From the IMG/VR virus record IMGVR_UViG_3300027608_000092, positions 1-33,221 of that record: 33,221 nucleotides of DNA. One strand, written 5' to 3'. This stretch comes from a virus. Below are positions 16,897-33,096 of this stretch, in pieces. Position 1 is the stretch's first letter. The number at the start of each line of letters is the position of its first letter. Under the pieces are notes generated by a model. The model was given only the letters and a program-made list of their open reading frames with translations, did not search any database and was not told the origin of the DNA. A program made the position numbers and the translations under genes.

Positions 16897-16965
16897 TTTG
16901 TTATGATATTATAATAAAAGTATTATATTTGTAAGGTATTAACAATTTAAAAACTAGAAATTATG
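16897..16965 (+). promoter_or_regulatory. Promoter P1 with conserved leader
   Basis: A TATATTTG box (16924-16931) matches the Bacteroidota -7 consensus TAnnTTTG. A TTTG at 16897-16900 lies 23 bases upstream as a possible -33 element. The block 16902-16933 recurs with one change at 25468-25499, and the leader AAAAACTAGAAATTATG (16949-16965) recurs exactly at 25514-25530. It lies directly after the late terminator and should start the early gene set. Confidence 0.75.
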
Positions 16966-19666: not shown

Positions 19667-19674
19667 TATATTTG
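19667..19674 (+). promoter_or_regulatory. Promoter box for RNA element A
   Basis: TATATTTG exactly matches the Bacteroidota -7 consensus TAnnTTTG and would place transcription start near 19679-19682, just before stem 1 of the structured RNA that follows. A clear -33 TTTG was not found. Confidence 0.6.
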
Positions 19675-19679
19675 TACGG

Positions 19680-19759
19680 TAGAGTGGAAGCTACAGATAA
19701 GAACTTTTTTAAACTCCTCGAGTTGACGTGTCTTCCACCACTGATACTCGGGGTTTTTT
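19680..19759 (+). ncRNA. Structured RNA element A (pseudoknot with terminator)
   Basis: About 80 nt. Stem 1 pairs GTGGAAG (19684-19690) with CTTCCAC (19732-19738). Stem 2 pairs CCTCGAGT (19716-19723) with ACTCGGGG (19746-19753, one G-U pair). The order 1-2-1'-2' is a pseudoknot or a two-state switch. Six Ts follow stem 2. Spacings between elements are 25, 8 and 7 nt, nearly those of element B at 24.6 kb (23, 10 and 8). The linker has the shared segment AAGAAxTTT. It may be a stand-alone small RNA or an attenuator in the leader of the primase-helicase gene. Confidence 0.6.
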
Positions 19760-19778: not shown

Positions 19779-19838
19779 ATGAGCAAGAATGGTAGAAGAG
19801 TAGAAGCATCTGGAAGAACATTACAAGGATCAATTTAA
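19779..19838 (+). CDS. Possible 19-residue leader peptide
   Basis: An ATG frame encodes MSKNGRRVEASGRTLQGSI between RNA element A and the primase-helicase gene. It is Arg/Gly-rich and ends 24 bases before the next ATG. Support is limited to its start context and lack of overlap, so it may not be translated. Confidence 0.25.
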   Translation: MSKNGRRVEASGRTLQGSI

Positions 19839-19862: not shown

Positions 19863-22250
19863 ATGTTAGTATCAATATTTAAGACTGTAATGGATAGTTC
19901 TAATCCATTCAACAAAGATGTTTACTATGCTTTAGATAGAATAAAGATAGGTAAGAGTAAAGCATTAAATGAACAAATTAGAGCAACTGAATCAAAGGAT
20001 GAACAAAACAAATTAAAGAAGGGACTGCCTGGTGTTTGTTTTAATGGAACCTTTAAGCAAAGGTCAATAAGAGGTGTAGATAAAAGGTCAGGATTAATAA
20101 TACTAGACTTTGATGGATTACCTACTTTTGAAGATACTATTAAATTCAAAGAAGAAATATGCAAAGATGAATTTGTATTTTCTAGTTGGATCTCTCCAAG
20201 TGGTAAGGGTATAAAGGTACTAGTTAAAATAGCCACTACAGGAGAGCATAAGAACTACTTCTTAGCTTTAGAAAAACACTTTAATTCTCAGTATTGGGAC
20301 AAGTCTTCTTCTAATATTGATAGATTTTGCTTTGAATCATACGATGAAAACTTATTTTTAAACAAAAAATCTAAAGTATGGACTGAATGTGAGTCATTAT
20401 CTATTTCAGATATAGGTGTACAAGAGCCATTACTAGCTATTAAATCAGACAATAGAATTATATCTAATTTGTTGAAATGGTGGAATGATAATCATGGAAT
20501 GGTAGCTGGTCAAAAGAATAATAATCTTTTTAAACTAGCTGCTGCTTTAAATACATTTGGTATTAATATAAGAGAAGCTGAAAATGTATTAATGCAATTT
20601 GATGAAGGAGGAAAAGAGAAAGAAATTTTAATGCTTTTAAATTCTGCTTATAAAAATGTACATGAATTTGGAACTAGATTCTTTGAAGATACTCAGACTA
20701 AACATAAAATTGAAAAACAAATTAGAAGTGGTAAAAAAGTAAAGGAAATATTTAATTCATTCCCTGAGTATAATGAGTCAGATTTAGAAAGTTGCGTATC
20801 AGGATTAAAAGAACGTGTAGAAATGGAAGACTTTTGGTCACATGATCAAGAAGGAAAATGTAAACTTTCTCCACATAAATATAAATTTTGGTTACAAGAG
20901 AATAATTTCTTTAAGTATTTTCCAACAAATAGCAATACATATACATTTATCCGTAAAGACCAAAACTTAATCGAAGAAACAAACGAGAAGAGAATAAAAG
21001 ATTTTGTACTAGATACATTATTGCAACGTGATGACATTGGATTCATGCCTTATGACATGATGGCATCCACTACTAAATACTTTACAAGTGAGTTTTTATC
21101 TTGTTTAGAAAGTGCTGAAATAGAAATAAAAGAAGATACTATAGATAAAGCATATTTGTACTATAATAATTGTGCTTTAGAAGTATCTAAAAACGAAGTA
21201 AAGAAGATAGATTATATTGACATTAAAGGGTTTGTATGGAAGAAACAATTAATTGATAGAGACTTTGAAAGTTTTGACCATCACGATGCTGTATTTAGAA
21301 AGTTTTTATGGCTAATTGCTGGTAAAGATATAAGTAAATACAACTCATTTAAGTCAGTAATTGGATATTTAATGCACTCTTTTAAAACTAGTGCTAATAA
21401 CAAAGCAATTATTTTTAACGATGAGACTATTTCAGAGAATCCAAATGGCGGAAGTGGTAAGGGATTGTTTTGGAATGCACTTGCAAAGATGAAAAAAGTT
21501 GCATCTATAGATGGTAAGACTTTTGAATTTAATAAATCATTTCCTTATCAAACTGTTTCAACAGATACACAAGTTTTGATATTTGACGATGTTAAAAAGA
21601 ACTTTAATTTTGAGTCTTTATTCTCTTTAATTACTGAAGGTATTACATTAGAATACAAAGGACAGGATGCAATAAAATTACCTGTAAATAAGTCCCCAAA
21701 GATATTAATTACAACTAACTATACGATTGGTGGTATTGGTGGATCTTTTGAACGTAGAAAGTTCGAAGTTGAAATGAGTGACTATTTTAGTTTTAAACAT
21801 ACACCACTAGATGAGTTTGGACATATGCTATTTGACGAGTGGGATAATAAAGAATGGTTGAGATTTGATAATTATATGATTAATTGTTGCCAATATTATT
21901 TAGAAAATGGATTAGTTAAGCATAATTTTAATAACTTAGACATCCGTAAATTTATTAAAGAAACTTCATACGAATTTTATGAATGGTGTAACGATGGCAA
22001 TTTACCATTTAATGTTCGACTTTATAAAGATGATTTGCATGATTTATTTATAAAAGATTATACTGATTTCCATAAGCTATCTAAAAAAAGATTTACATCA
22101 TGGTTATCTACTTATGCAGTATTTTATAAGCATAAGACATTTGAAGGAAAAACTAATAATAGAAGGTGGGTAGAATTTGAAAATAAAACTGAATCACCAA
22201 TTATTCCATCTGATGATATATGGGATTCACCAGAATTAAAAGGACTATGA
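19863..22250 (+). CDS. VirE_N/BT4734-like primase-helicase
   Basis: A 795-residue replication protein. The N-terminus (about 1-140) resembles the VirE_N/BT4734-like domain, an archaeo-eukaryotic-primase relative, with the acidic pair D82-F-D84 in LIILDFDGL and the SPSGKGIK loop (111-118). The C-terminal part is a superfamily 3-type helicase: P-loop NPNGGSGKG (about 526-534), Walker B-like QVLIFDD ending at D575-D576, and PKILITTNYTIGG as a sensor segment. It is expected to prime and unwind phage DNA. The start ATG at 19863 follows an A/T-rich leader. No DNA polymerase gene was seen, so host polymerase is probably recruited. Confidence 0.8.
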   Translation: MLVSIFKTVMDSSNPFNKDVYYALDRIKIGKSKALNEQIRATESKDEQNKLKKGLPGVCFNGTFKQRSIRGVDKRSGLIILDFDGLPTFEDTIKFKEEICKDEFVFSSWISPSGKGIKVLVKIATTGEHKNYFLALEKHFNSQYWDKSSSNIDRFCFESYDENLFLNKKSKVWTECESLSISDIGVQEPLLAIKSDNRIISNLLKWWNDNHGMVAGQKNNNLFKLAAALNTFGINIREAENVLMQFDEGGKEKEILMLLNSAYKNVHEFGTRFFEDTQTKHKIEKQIRSGKKVKEIFNSFPEYNESDLESCVSGLKERVEMEDFWSHDQEGKCKLSPHKYKFWLQENNFFKYFPTNSNTYTFIRKDQNLIEETNEKRIKDFVLDTLLQRDDIGFMPYDMMASTTKYFTSEFLSCLESAEIEIKEDTIDKAYLYYNNCALEVSKNEVKKIDYIDIKGFVWKKQLIDRDFESFDHHDAVFRKFLWLIAGKDISKYNSFKSVIGYLMHSFKTSANNKAIIFNDETISENPNGGSGKGLFWNALAKMKKVASIDGKTFEFNKSFPYQTVSTDTQVLIFDDVKKNFNFESLFSLITEGITLEYKGQDAIKLPVNKSPKILITTNYTIGGIGGSFERRKFEVEMSDYFSFKHTPLDEFGHMLFDEWDNKEWLRFDNYMINCCQYYLENGLVKHNFNNLDIRKFIKETSYEFYEWCNDGNLPFNVRLYKDDLHDLFIKDYTDFHKLSKKRFTSWLSTYAVFYKHKTFEGKTNNRRWVEFENKTESPIIPSDDIWDSPELKGL

Positions 22251-23361: not shown

Positions 23362-24575
23362 AAGAATTACGTTCGTACCAACTAGACCTATCCAAGAAAG
23401 CTGTACAAATACTCCGAGATAAGAATATAGTGTACTTAGCCATGGAAGTTCGTTTAGGCAAAACTTTGACTGCATTAAATACTTGTGAGTTGTATGGTGC
23501 TAAGTCGGTCTTATTTGTGACTAAAAAGAAAGCAATGTCATCTATAGAGTCGGATTATGCTAGTATGCCGTTTTCTTTTGATTTAGTAGTTATAAATACA
23601 GAATCAATACATAAGGTAGTTGGACAATTTGATGTTATTATAAGTGATGAGAATCATAAATACGGAAGTTTCCCAAAGCCAAGTAAAGGTGCAAAAGAAT
23701 TTAAACAACGATACTCAAATTTGCCACTTATATTCTTAAGTGGCACACCTCACCCTGAGTCGTATTCTCAAATATACCATCAATTTTGGATAAGTAAGCA
23801 CACACCATTTCATCAATACCCATCTTTTTATAAATGGGCATCAACATTCGTAAACGTAACTACAAAGCATTTAGGATATGGAATGATTAAAGACTATAAA
23901 GATGCAAAGAAAGAATTAATAGAAGCCGTAATTAAACCTTATATGATAACGTACACACAAAAAGAAGCTGGATTTAGCTCTACAATCAATGAAAAGATAA
24001 TATACGTTGAAATGAAAGAGTCAACATACGCACTAATTAAGCGTTTAGAAAATGATTTAATCGTACAAGGCAAGCATGAAGTGATACTTGGGGATACATC
24101 GGTTAAGTTAATGTCTAAATTGCATCAACTGTATTCAGGTACTATTAAATTTGAAAGCGGAAACACAGCTGTATTAGATTATTCTAAAGCAATACGTATC
24201 TATACAATGTTTAAGAGTAGACAAATTGCAATATTCTATAAGTTTAAGGCTGAATTAGATGCTTTGGAGTTCATATTTGGAGATACACTAACAACAGACC
24301 TGGACGAGTTCAACACAACAACCAAGTCAATAGCTTATCAAATAGTTTCAGGTCGCGAGGGTGTTAATTTAAGCCGTGCATCTTCATTGGTATATATGAA
24401 TATAGACTTTAGTGCTGTATCTTATTGGCAAAGTCGTGACAGGTTACAAACTATTGACAGACTAGAAAATAACATTTACTGGTTCTTTGCAAAAAATGGT
24501 ATAGAGGATAAAATTTACAAAGCAGTTATGAATAAAAAAAATTATACATTGGATGTATTTAAGAAAGATTATTAG
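23349..24575 (+). CDS. Superfamily 2 DNA helicase
   Basis: A 408-residue SNF2/DEAD-like ATPase. Motifs in order: Q-type RSYQ (8-11), Walker A EVRLGKT (33-39), Walker B variant DENH (100-103), motif III LSGTP (130-134), and motif VI QSRDR (361-365) in the second RecA-like domain. Phage proteins of this type unwind or remodel DNA in replication or recombination. The usual partner, a VRR-NUC nuclease, is found at 25200, separated by RNA element B and an HNH gene. The Walker A lysine and motif VI arginines are intact. Confidence 0.8.
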   Translation: MEKIKELRSYQLDLSKKAVQILRDKNIVYLAMEVRLGKTLTALNTCELYGAKSVLFVTKKKAMSSIESDYASMPFSFDLVVINTESIHKVVGQFDVIISDENHKYGSFPKPSKGAKEFKQRYSNLPLIFLSGTPHPESYSQIYHQFWISKHTPFHQYPSFYKWASTFVNVTTKHLGYGMIKDYKDAKKELIEAVIKPYMITYTQKEAGFSSTINEKIIYVEMKESTYALIKRLENDLIVQGKHEVILGDTSVKLMSKLHQLYSGTIKFESGNTAVLDYSKAIRIYTMFKSRQIAIFYKFKAELDALEFIFGDTLTTDLDEFNTTTKSIAYQIVSGREGVNLSRASSLVYMNIDFSAVSYWQSRDRLQTIDRLENNIYWFFAKNGIEDKIYKAVMNKKNYTLDVFKKDY

Positions 24576-24581
24576 TATCTT

Positions 24582-24589
24582 TATATTCG
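24582..24589 (+). promoter_or_regulatory. Promoter-like box for RNA element B
   Basis: TATATTCG differs at one base from the TAnnTTTG consensus and lies 5 bases before stem 1 of the structured RNA. No -33 element was seen, so promoter activity is uncertain. Confidence 0.4.
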
Positions 24590-24593
24590 TGTA

Positions 24594-24673
24594 GTTGCGG
24601 ACACATTAAGAAATTTAATAATTGCTATTAGTGAGTAGAGACCGCAACCTCGAAAGCTAATAGCTTTTTTTTT
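24594..24673 (+). ncRNA. Structured RNA element B (pseudoknot with terminator)
   Basis: About 80 nt between the helicase and HNH genes. Stem 1 pairs GTTGCGG (24594-24600) with CCGCAAC (24642-24648). Stem 2 pairs GCTATTAG (24624-24631) with CTAATAGC (24657-24664), both perfect. The interleaved 1-2-1'-2' order gives a pseudoknot, and nine Ts follow. Stem lengths are 7 and 8 bp as in element A, spacings are similar, and the linker shares ACA and AAGAAxTTT, although the stems have different sequences. A local 5-bp hairpin (24653-24667) can also act as a terminator. The T-run abuts the HNH start codon. Confidence 0.65.
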
Positions 24674-25198
24674 ATGGAAGAAATATTTAAAGACATAATT
24701 GGATATGAAGGATCGTATCAAATTAGTAATTTAGGAAAGGTAAAAAGCTTAAGTAGATTAGTAGATAATCATTCAGGATTCAAAAAGAAACTTAAAGAGA
24801 AGTTTTTAAAAACACATATAAGTAAAACTGGATATTTTATTGTTGACCTAAAGCTTAATAGTAATAGAGTAACATTCAAAGTACATAGGTTAATAGCTAT
24901 CCATTTTATTCCAAAGATAAATGGCAAAGATTATGTAAATCATATTAACGGAGTAAAAACCGATAATTCAATAATAAATCTTGAATGGTGTACTATATCA
25001 GAAAATAATAAACATGCAATAGAAATTGGATTAAAAAATGATAAAGGATACAACAATTCTAGATCTAAATTAACAAAAGAAAATTTATTAGAAATTAGAA
25101 ATTCAAATCTAAAAATAAAAGATTTAGCAGTAAAATATAATGTTAATTACAGCACAATATTAAGAGTTAAAAAAAATAAAACTTATATAAATCAATAA
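24674..25198 (+). CDS. HNH homing-type endonuclease (NUMOD4-HNH)
   Basis: A 174-residue protein. Residues 3-26 match the NUMOD4 pattern (FKDIIGYEGSYQISNLGKVKSL). The HNH nuclease follows: KVHRLIAIHF (69-78), VNHINGVKTDNSIINLEW (88-105) with H71, H90 and the following Asn residues. Residues 130-172 form a NUMOD1/HTH-like DNA-binding tail (KIKDLAVKYNVNYSTILRVKKNKTY). Such enzymes are freestanding mobile genes that cut related phage DNA and spread. It separates the helicase from its VRR-NUC partner, as expected for an insertion. The catalytic motif looks intact. Confidence 0.85.
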   Translation: MEEIFKDIIGYEGSYQISNLGKVKSLSRLVDNHSGFKKKLKEKFLKTHISKTGYFIVDLKLNSNRVTFKVHRLIAIHFIPKINGKDYVNHINGVKTDNSIINLEWCTISENNKHAIEIGLKNDKGYNNSRSKLTKENLLEIRNSNLKIKDLAVKYNVNYSTILRVKKNKTYINQ

Positions 25199-25199
25199 T

Positions 25200-25472
25200 A
25201 TGTCAGAGTCAAAAATTCAAGCGAGTTGCATAAAATATGCTAAATCGAAAGGCTGGTATGTTCTCAAAGTAATTAAATGTAACGTAAACGGATTCCCTGA
25301 TTCAGCACTTTTTAAGGATGGTAAAACATTTTTTGTTGAATTTAAAACAGCTATCGGAAAGCAATCAAAACTACAGGAATACGTTGAGAGTGAATTGATT
25401 AAGCAAGGATTCAAGTATTATCTTATTCGAGACCTAAAAGAATTTCAAAATATAATTACGGAAATGATATGA
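25200..25472 (+). CDS. VRR-NUC domain nuclease
   Basis: A 90-residue, single-domain VRR-NUC protein of the PD-(D/E)xK superfamily. The core is NGFPDSALFKDGKTFFVEFKT (30-50) with D34, E47 and K49 as catalytic residues, followed by GKQSKLQ (Q55). Stand-alone phage VRR-NUC proteins cleave branched DNA such as Holliday junctions. The gene normally sits next to an SF2 helicase; here the HNH gene intervenes. The start is one base after the HNH stop. Confidence 0.85.
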   Translation: MSESKIQASCIKYAKSKGWYVLKVIKCNVNGFPDSALFKDGKTFFVEFKTAIGKQSKLQEYVESELIKQGFKYYLIRDLKEFQNIITEMI

Positions 25473-25530
25473 TATTATAATAAAAGCATTATATTTGTAG
25501 AAACAAACAAACAAAAAACTAGAAATTATG
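25468..25530 (+). promoter_or_regulatory. Promoter P2, near copy of P1
   Basis: Block 25468-25499 matches 16902-16933 at 31 of 32 positions, including the TATATTTG box (25490-25497). The leader AAAAACTAGAAATTATG (25514-25530) is identical to that of P1, while the 14 bases between differ from the 15 in P1. The start of the block overlaps the last codons of the VRR-NUC gene. Confidence 0.75.
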
Positions 25531-32112: not shown

Positions 32113-32551
32113 TTTTACAACAGCATTATACAATCATTTAATAAGTGATCCGTTAATTAATCAAGTTTCAAAAGGTAGCGTAGATAAGATTACAAACGCT
32201 AAAAAAGATATGTATCCATTAGCTCACGTTATGATTGATAACGGGGGCTTTGAAGGCAATACAATAAGATTAAATGTATCTATAGTTATCATAGATATTG
32301 TTGATTATACAAAAGAAGATTTAACCAACTTATATTTTGGGAATAATAATGTAGATGATATCCATAATCAAACATTAATGATCTGCCAACGTGCATTCGA
32401 AAGCATGAGACGAGGTCAAATGAGTGATGATTATTCTATTGAATCTGACACGGCATCTTTTGATTTCTTTGAAGATAGATTTACAGACCAGGTTGCTGGA
32501 ACGACTATGACTTTCGATGTAATAATGGCAAACCAAATGACTATATGTTAA
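32096..32551 (+). CDS. Tail completion/terminator-like protein (DUF3168-like)
   Basis: A 151-residue protein. The start MKGYYDFTTALYNHLISDPLINQVSKGSVDKI and centre 'YPLAHVMIDNGGFEGNTIRLNVSIVIIDIVDY' resemble small tail terminator proteins that cap the tail tube. It is followed by the gp10-like gene, the usual order. The C-terminal 47 codons are repeated at 1-145 with a single amino-acid change (Gln to Glu). Similarity is by pattern; no search was possible. Confidence 0.5.
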   Translation: MKGYYDFTTALYNHLISDPLINQVSKGSVDKITNAKKDMYPLAHVMIDNGGFEGNTIRLNVSIVIIDIVDYTKEDLTNLYFGNNNVDDIHNQTLMICQRAFESMRRGQMSDDYSIESDTASFDFFEDRFTDQVAGTTMTFDVIMANQMTIC

Positions 32552-33096
32552 ATGTACAGGAAGAATTAGACAAGTTTAAGAAGTACGTAATACAGCAATC
32601 TAAATCTAATCTATCTAAGCTAAAAAAAAACGATAGAAAAGGTCTGTATAATACGATTAAAGGTGAAGCAAAGGCAATGCCTAACTCTTTCTACCTTGCA
32701 TTTGATTTAGGTGAGTATGGTGCATATGTAGATAAAGGTGTAAAGGGTGCAGATCCTTCTCAGGTTTCTCCAAACGCAAAGATAAAAGGACAGCAAGCGC
32801 CAAATAGTCCGTACAGTTTTAAAAATAAAAAACCACCATCAGACTTAATTGCAAAGTGGGCACAAAGAAAAGGCTTAAGGTTGCGAAATAAACAAGGTCA
32901 ATACGTTAAAGGTAGCTATAAAGCAATAGGATTTATTACAGCAAAAAACATTTGGGCGCGAGGTATTAAGCCTTCATTGTTCTTTACAAAACCATTTGAG
33001 AAGGCATATAAAAATCTACCTGAAGAATTAATCGTTAAATACGGATTGGATGCTGAAGAGTTATTTAAGTATACAATCAAACAACCTGAAAAATAA
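32545..33096 (+). CDS. HK97 gp10-like neck/tail completion protein, allele B
   Basis: A 183-residue homologue of the protein at 139-669. It shares the first 12 residues and the last 26 residues exactly, with the islands GEAKAMPNSFYL and KPSLFFTKPF, while the rest is strongly changed, including a 7-residue length gain. The flanking DNA is nearly identical. It is either a second allele of one locus captured by the assembly or a true tandem copy. Confidence 0.6.
   Translation: MLNVQEELDKFKKYVIQQSKSNLSKLKKNDRKGLYNTIKGEAKAMPNSFYLAFDLGEYGAYVDKGVKGADPSQVSPNAKIKGQQAPNSPYSFKNKKPPSDLIAKWAQRKGLRLRNKQGQYVKGSYKAIGFITAKNIWARGIKPSLFFTKPFEKAYKNLPEELIVKYGLDAEELFKYTIKQPEK

Follow-up and report, generated by a model that had tools for sequence, protein, structure and literature searches.

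A covarying family of kissing-loop leader RNAs ahead of genes in Bacteroidota phages

Introduction

Two short stretches of one phage genome raise the question of whether RNAs whose stems look nothing alike in sequence can nevertheless be the same thing. The DNA analyzed here, hereafter the window, comprises the 33,221 bases of an IMG/VR virus record; phage structural genes occupy one side of it and replication genes the other. Element A precedes a primase/helicase gene. Element B is found between the gene of a helicase and that of a NUMOD4/HNH homing endonuclease. A preliminary description of this DNA had reported that both consist of four arms in the interleaved order 1-2-1'-2' followed by a run of T, and on re-reading, its arms, stem lengths, spacings (25/8/7 in A and 23/10/8 in B) and T-runs (6 and 9) were all correct; stem 2 of B has 9 pairs when extended by a T-G pair. 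To our knowledge, the structured RNA families of Bacteroidota phages are poorly charted. We asked whether the likeness between A and B is real, how far it extends beyond this genome, and what such an RNA might do.

Results

The likeness of A and B is not due to chance. Because the arms are short and many weak hairpins arise in A+T-rich sequence, chance inverted repeats were the obvious null explanation. Both window strands were scanned blind with a descriptor that calls for two interleaved stems and then a T-run. The two top structures were B (score 23) and A (score 22); a structure scoring 19 was a variant of A itself, and the best unrelated one scored 16. The same descriptor applied to 1.2 Mb of viral contigs returned 66 matches scoring at least 24, some of them repeated among related contigs, versus none in a dinucleotide shuffle. 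Relatives of the window's primase and helicase, taken from viral contigs, served as comparison loci. When the descriptor was anchored on the promoter box and all four helices were required, the whole structure followed 57 of 603 TATATTTG sites in viral loci, versus 0, 1, 0, 0 and 0 in five dinucleotide shuffles of the same stretches. Without the T-run requirement, 76 sites scored at least 27, versus none in two shuffles. Given these counts and the covariation described below, we regard the probability that chance repeats explain A and B as negligible.

Table 1. Features of elements A and B, their neighboring genes, and the copy in an isolate phage
Feature	Position	Strand	Remarks
A, -7 promoter box TATATTTG	19667..19674	+	Bacteroidota sigmaA box TAnnTTTG; predicted +1 at 19679
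A, hairpin HA	19679..19694	+	GTAG-a-GTGGAAG-CTAC: GTAG (19679-19682), loop a plus K arm GTGGAAG (19684-19690), CTAC (19691-19694); RNAfold MFE
A, linker, A/U-rich	19695..19715	+	contains AAGAACTT (19699-19706), a AAGAAATT-type motif
A, P2 stem (P2/HB hairpin)	19716..19753	+	CCTCGAGT (19716-19723) / ACTCGGGG (19746-19753)
A, hairpin HB, nested inside P2	19728-19730 / 19739-19741	+	GTG / CAC, arranged GTG-t-CTTCCAC-CAC; from fold and covariation
A, loop K'	19732-19738	+	CTTCCAC; kissing partner of 19684-19690
A, U-tract	19754..19759	+	read from sequence
Candidate 19-codon ORF (MSKNGRRVEASGRTLQGSI) right after A	19779..19838	+	gap of 25 nt
Primase/helicase gene (BT4734-like_N)	19863..22250	+	first large gene past A
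B, -7 promoter box TATCTTTA	24576..24583	+	first base directly after helicase stop codon
B, hairpin HA	24589..24604	+	GTGT-a-GTTGCGG-ACAC: GTGT (24589-24592), loop a plus K arm GTTGCGG (24594-24600), ACAC (24601-24604)
B, linker	24605..24623	+	contains AAGAAATT (24608-24615)
B, P2 stem (P2/HB hairpin)	24624..24664	+	GCTATTAGT (24624-24632) / GCTAATAGC (24656-24664); internal loop GAGTA/GAAA
B, hairpin HB	24638-24640 / 24649-24651	+	GAG / CTC, arranged GAG-a-CCGCAAC-CTC; from sequence and covariation
B, loop K'	24642-24648	+	CCGCAAC; kissing partner of 24594-24600
B, U-tract	24665..24673	+	runs up to ATG of HNH gene
Free-standing homing endonuclease gene (NUMOD4 + HNH_3), led by B	24674..25198	+	
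elemoF copy	9325-9212		Flavobacterium phage elemoF, host Flavobacterium sp. BAL314; model R2, E=1.9e-4

The arms of stem 1 do not form a plain H-type stem, as the interleaved order alone might suggest (Table 1). Each sits in the loop of its own small hairpin, arm 1 in that of HA and arm 1' in that of HB, with HB nested in stem 2 (P2) in both elements. Stem 1 is therefore an intramolecular loop-loop kissing interaction. RNAfold of A yields exactly HA and HB, with 8-nt loops, and the pseudoknot-free fold of B departs from this layout. Across the family the kissing loops comprise 6 to 10 pairs. The AAGAAATT motif behind the previously noted linker likeness occurs in many members and is absent from others, while the terminal T-run is typical of members and variable. 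Two further ideas about the architecture were rejected: that every internal loop forms a bulged-G or tandem-GA module (13 and 20 of 66 fit, respectively, and half fit neither), and that HA, K, HB and P2 form one rod bridged by the linker, since linker length drops as rod length grows (rho -0.47).

A covariance-model search, proposed in the preliminary description, found members with covarying pairs in related phages. Model R1 was seeded with four B-type sequences and included HA, HB and P2, with the kissing pairs left out. It found element A independently (E=3e-4) and matched 40 places in the window and its relatives, all on the gene strand. Pairing holds in 92.6% of cells across the 31 distinct sequences of the resulting alignment, versus 57.9% in shuffled alignments; double-sided changes occur in 22 of 23 pairs; and the covariation score is 0.740, versus 0.186 shuffled and at most 0.118 in slid controls. 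The HA helix covaries, with 91% of cells paired. The seven kissing pairs, which R1 never saw, are 86.5% paired and score 0.270 (0.063 shuffled; slid controls at most 0.067), and the kissing interaction is thus independently supported. Since the aligned sequences are related, the shuffles are not to be read as probabilities, while relatedness is retained in the slid controls. A second model, R2, matches A (E=4e-10) and B (E=3e-13), but both are among its training sequences, and the independent test is the finding of A by R1. HA, K, HB and P2 occur in fixed order in A and B, with covariation across the alignment. The view that pairing was kept while sequence changed, the mark of a selected structure, is borne out by real covariation across these 31 sequences.

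The -7 box TAnnTTTG of Flavobacterium psychrophilum occupies positions -12 to -5 (PMC9723704). The box claimed ahead of A is indeed a -7 box, TATATTTG, at the right distance, and applying the published spacing places the predicted start of A on the first base of HA. The box of B is best read as TATCTTTA, which gives a predicted start at 24588, one base upstream of HA. At the other end, P2 is followed, at a median distance of 17 nt from its 3' end (IQR 14-23), by an ATG that opens a frame of 40 or more codons. This gap is at most 30 nt in 52 of 61 cases; a second -7-like box occurs in only 2 of 57 gaps, both unusually long. In B the gap is 9 nt, and P2 of A lies 25 nt from the 19-codon ORF and 109 nt from the primase. 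The family layout, with a -7 box at the 5' end and a start codon 7 to 30 nt past P2, was found. Stretches similar to the 19-codon ORF occur in L004, L034, L039 and L044, where the frame diverges or is interrupted; its interpretation as a decayed HNH gene was rejected, as no HNH likeness was seen.

Other recurring stretches were seen in these genomes. Two more TATATTTG promoters in the window (16905-16960 and 25470-25530) lack a kissing-loop element; they share an extended repeat (gatattataataaaag.attatatttgta), and the leader of each ends in ctagaaattATG. In L119, L130 and L211, a second conserved stretch (AAAAGTTACTGGTAATCT.AAAACCTTTAT) separates the element from the ATG of a MVSLKFHD-type gene, which makes the gaps there about 46 to 52 nt.

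The genes downstream of members include primases, HNH endonucleases, helicases, a DNA methylase and a Rha-like regulator; on our own reading of the sequences, others appear to encode replisome-like proteins and small lipoproteins. The site of element B allows the element and its gene to be followed together. Directly after the helicase stop codon, the element and the HNH gene are both present in all six genomes that carry HNH there (the window, L007, L028, L038, L042 and L043), versus no element in any of 13 relatives without it, a contrast that may reflect few independent insertions because the left border is shared. Where the site is empty, the end of the helicase gene overlaps with the gene that follows. 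Four different kissing sequences are found among the elements at this site. The comparison ties the element to its downstream gene. The HNH cassettes directly after the helicase stop (24573-25200 in the window; L027-L044) go with last helicase codons that differ from those of empty sites. Elsewhere in the window, two similar genes lie at the record ends (139-669 and 32545-33096); both begin MLNVQEELDKFK and have similar endings, a pattern that might stem from tandem duplication, the genome being circularly permuted, or from an end effect of assembly.

The preliminary description had placed this family in one phage. Instead, about 100 copies were found in other viral contigs, plus one in an isolate, Flavobacterium phage elemoF. 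The elemoF copy was found by the model although missed by the descriptor; it has HA, K (GTGGAGG/CCTCCAC), HB, P2 and the U-tract and precedes gene phanotate17. The other five of six isolate phages examined had no model match. Records of about 20 to 40 kb hold 0 to 3 copies. Kissing sequences are extremely diverse, with 62 distinct ones among 66 representatives, and copies within one genome differ, the exception being one doubtful third copy in L411. Two groups vary the layout. One (L077:7447, L090:4155, L091:3826 and L103:9716, with ACCGCCAAG/CTTGGCGGT) has K, P2 and TATATTTG but no clear HA. The other, G+C-richer (L023:9690 and 12415, L380 and L381), keeps the layout, but its HB is longer, an additional 5' hairpin is present and the U-tract is weak or displaced.

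Outside viruses the family is nearly absent. Among 299 Flavobacteriaceae genomes a single one matched, the match lying on a contig that carries a replication-initiator-like gene, and searches of 395 phylum genomes and 396 order genomes gave no matches under stricter filters that lose weak ones. A pattern scan of bacterial genomes gave no convincing member among the matches listed. The earlier statement that A belongs to no known class agrees with our searches: no Rfam family, the Flavo-1 model included, credibly matches A or B at gathering or relaxed thresholds. BLAST of an element against phages returned nothing useful. We found no description of the element in the open-licence literature, which is weak evidence of novelty.

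Discussion

There is good support for placing A and B in a new family of 5' leader RNAs that act in cis in Bacteroidota phages, and the leader probably controls how much is made of the gene that follows. The fold, the covariation, the positions of promoter and start codon, the co-inheritance with the downstream gene and the near-absence from bacteria are all computed. How such control would be exerted is less certain. The reading we prefer, and to which we give about an even chance, is a locked, terminator-like attenuator between promoter and gene, for which we infer termination, its conditionality and the resulting control. Transcription would begin at or beside HA, so that the 5' end of the message would lie inside HA. 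The HA loop would pair with the HB loop, HB standing on P2, followed by the U-tract and, 10 to 25 nt on, the start codon. A fraction of transcripts would stop at the U-tract, giving an RNA of about 80 nt, while read-through would give the mRNA, the ratio being set by a factor that recognizes shape rather than sequence.

The 3' half of the element has the layout of an intrinsic terminator, a stable stem with a U-tract directly after it. P2 is present in the pseudoknot-free MFE structure of 62 of 66 representatives, and in members not selected for a U-tract, about 10 nt of it follow the last G/C pair (T fraction 0.6 to 0.9 over the first 10 nt). Together these observations speak for an intrinsic-terminator-like end between promoter and gene, and stem 2 with its U-tract looks like the G/C-containing stem and U-tract of a terminator-type attenuator. 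Unlike in such attenuators, a second hairpin within the 22- to 24-nt loop makes kissing pairs with the 5' end. Nor was any conserved alternative pairing of P2 found, the 5' arm pairing with the upstream leader better than the shuffled mean in only 27 of 66 cases; the usual attenuator logic is therefore missing, which counts against this reading. So does the expectation that a strong terminator placed right behind the helicase gene would deprive genes farther downstream of transcription, and so does the layout in the G+C-richer L023, which has no clear U-tract, although a slightly displaced one is present in its relatives L380 and L381.

Ranking close behind, and less probable in our judgment though a serious contender, is a leader acting on translation or mRNA stability. 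HA, locked by the kissing loop, would shield the 5' end from decay enzymes, serve as an operator for a phage RNA-binding protein, or both, and the U-tract would be a landing site for the ribosome or a protein instead of a terminator. In the operator version, the bound protein would go on to cover the unstructured U/A-rich sequence that leads to the ATG, in the way T4 gp32 coats its own mRNA. HA begins at the predicted +1, the ATG is never covered by structure (10 to 25 nt of U- then A-rich sequence are left free), and the failure to find an antiterminator fits this reading as well; 5'-terminal pairing stabilizes mRNA according to works cited in PMC3997798. The 5'-terminal pseudoknot of the T4 and RB69 gene 32 mRNA leader is the translational operator for gp32 (PMC535899), and like it, the present leaders have a 5'-terminal pseudoknot, then an unstructured A/U-rich stretch to the start codon, and a shape that is kept while sequence varies; this layout was found here. 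Unlike the ~28-nt pseudoknot of that single leader, they consist of kissing hairpins with a U-tract and precede many unrelated genes, a diversity that makes simple autoregulation by each product unlikely. A U-tract directly past the last G/C pair of a stable stem is, moreover, the textbook layout of a terminator.

The preliminary description had favored two other functions. A trans-acting phage small RNA that stands alone, about 80 nt long and served by a promoter and terminator of its own, would account for the promoter, compact fold and U-tract, all of which are there, but the element is bound to the next gene: the distance to the start codon is short and fixed, element and gene are gained and lost together, and that gene has almost no separate promoter. 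Nor does the diversity of K leave a conserved loop that could address a common target, and we consider this function improbable. Less probable still is a classical switch in which stems 1 and 2 exclude each other and set termination; the interleaved arms and the leader position would suit it, but all helices covary in the same set of molecules, are geometrically compatible as a kissing complex, and P2 has no antiterminator partner in the leader beyond the shuffled expectation.

One tentative and somewhat unlikely further reading is that a single factor of phage or host origin, or the polymerase as it transcribes, recognizes the kissing fold and sets the expression of all leader-bearing genes in a phage by shape only. 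Loops and stems would then be free to diverge and to differ between copies in a genome, avoiding cross-pairing, and homing endonuclease cassettes would bring their own leader copy along.

Structured phage mRNA leaders are already known as a kind; what is new is a leader RNA family with an unusual architecture. RNA structure controls the T4 homing endonucleases I-TevI, mobE and segB and seg43(25) of Aeromonas phage 25, the last having a hairpin that does not cover the RBS (PMC2988022). Here too there are homing endonuclease genes, several of them free-standing, that have a promoter of their own and a structured RNA immediately upstream of the start codon, but those leaders are plain, mostly RBS-sequestering hairpins, whereas the present ones are pseudoknotted and also serve the primase and other genes. 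The host group likewise has structured RNAs, Flavo-1 and other structured 5' regions of Flavobacteriaceae, some of which lie in 5' UTRs (PMC9723704, PMC2864571); unlike these, our elements have no Rfam match, and their family is almost absent from bacterial genomes. This family, which covaries strongly, lacks an Rfam entry and is nearly confined to viruses, has a member in a cultured phage whose host is known, and homing endonuclease genes are seen to carry a complete promoter-leader unit. As an attenuator, the leader would be of unusual design, its terminator hairpin held to the 5' end through the kissing loop; as an operator, it would show these phages regulating several genes by RNA shape alone.
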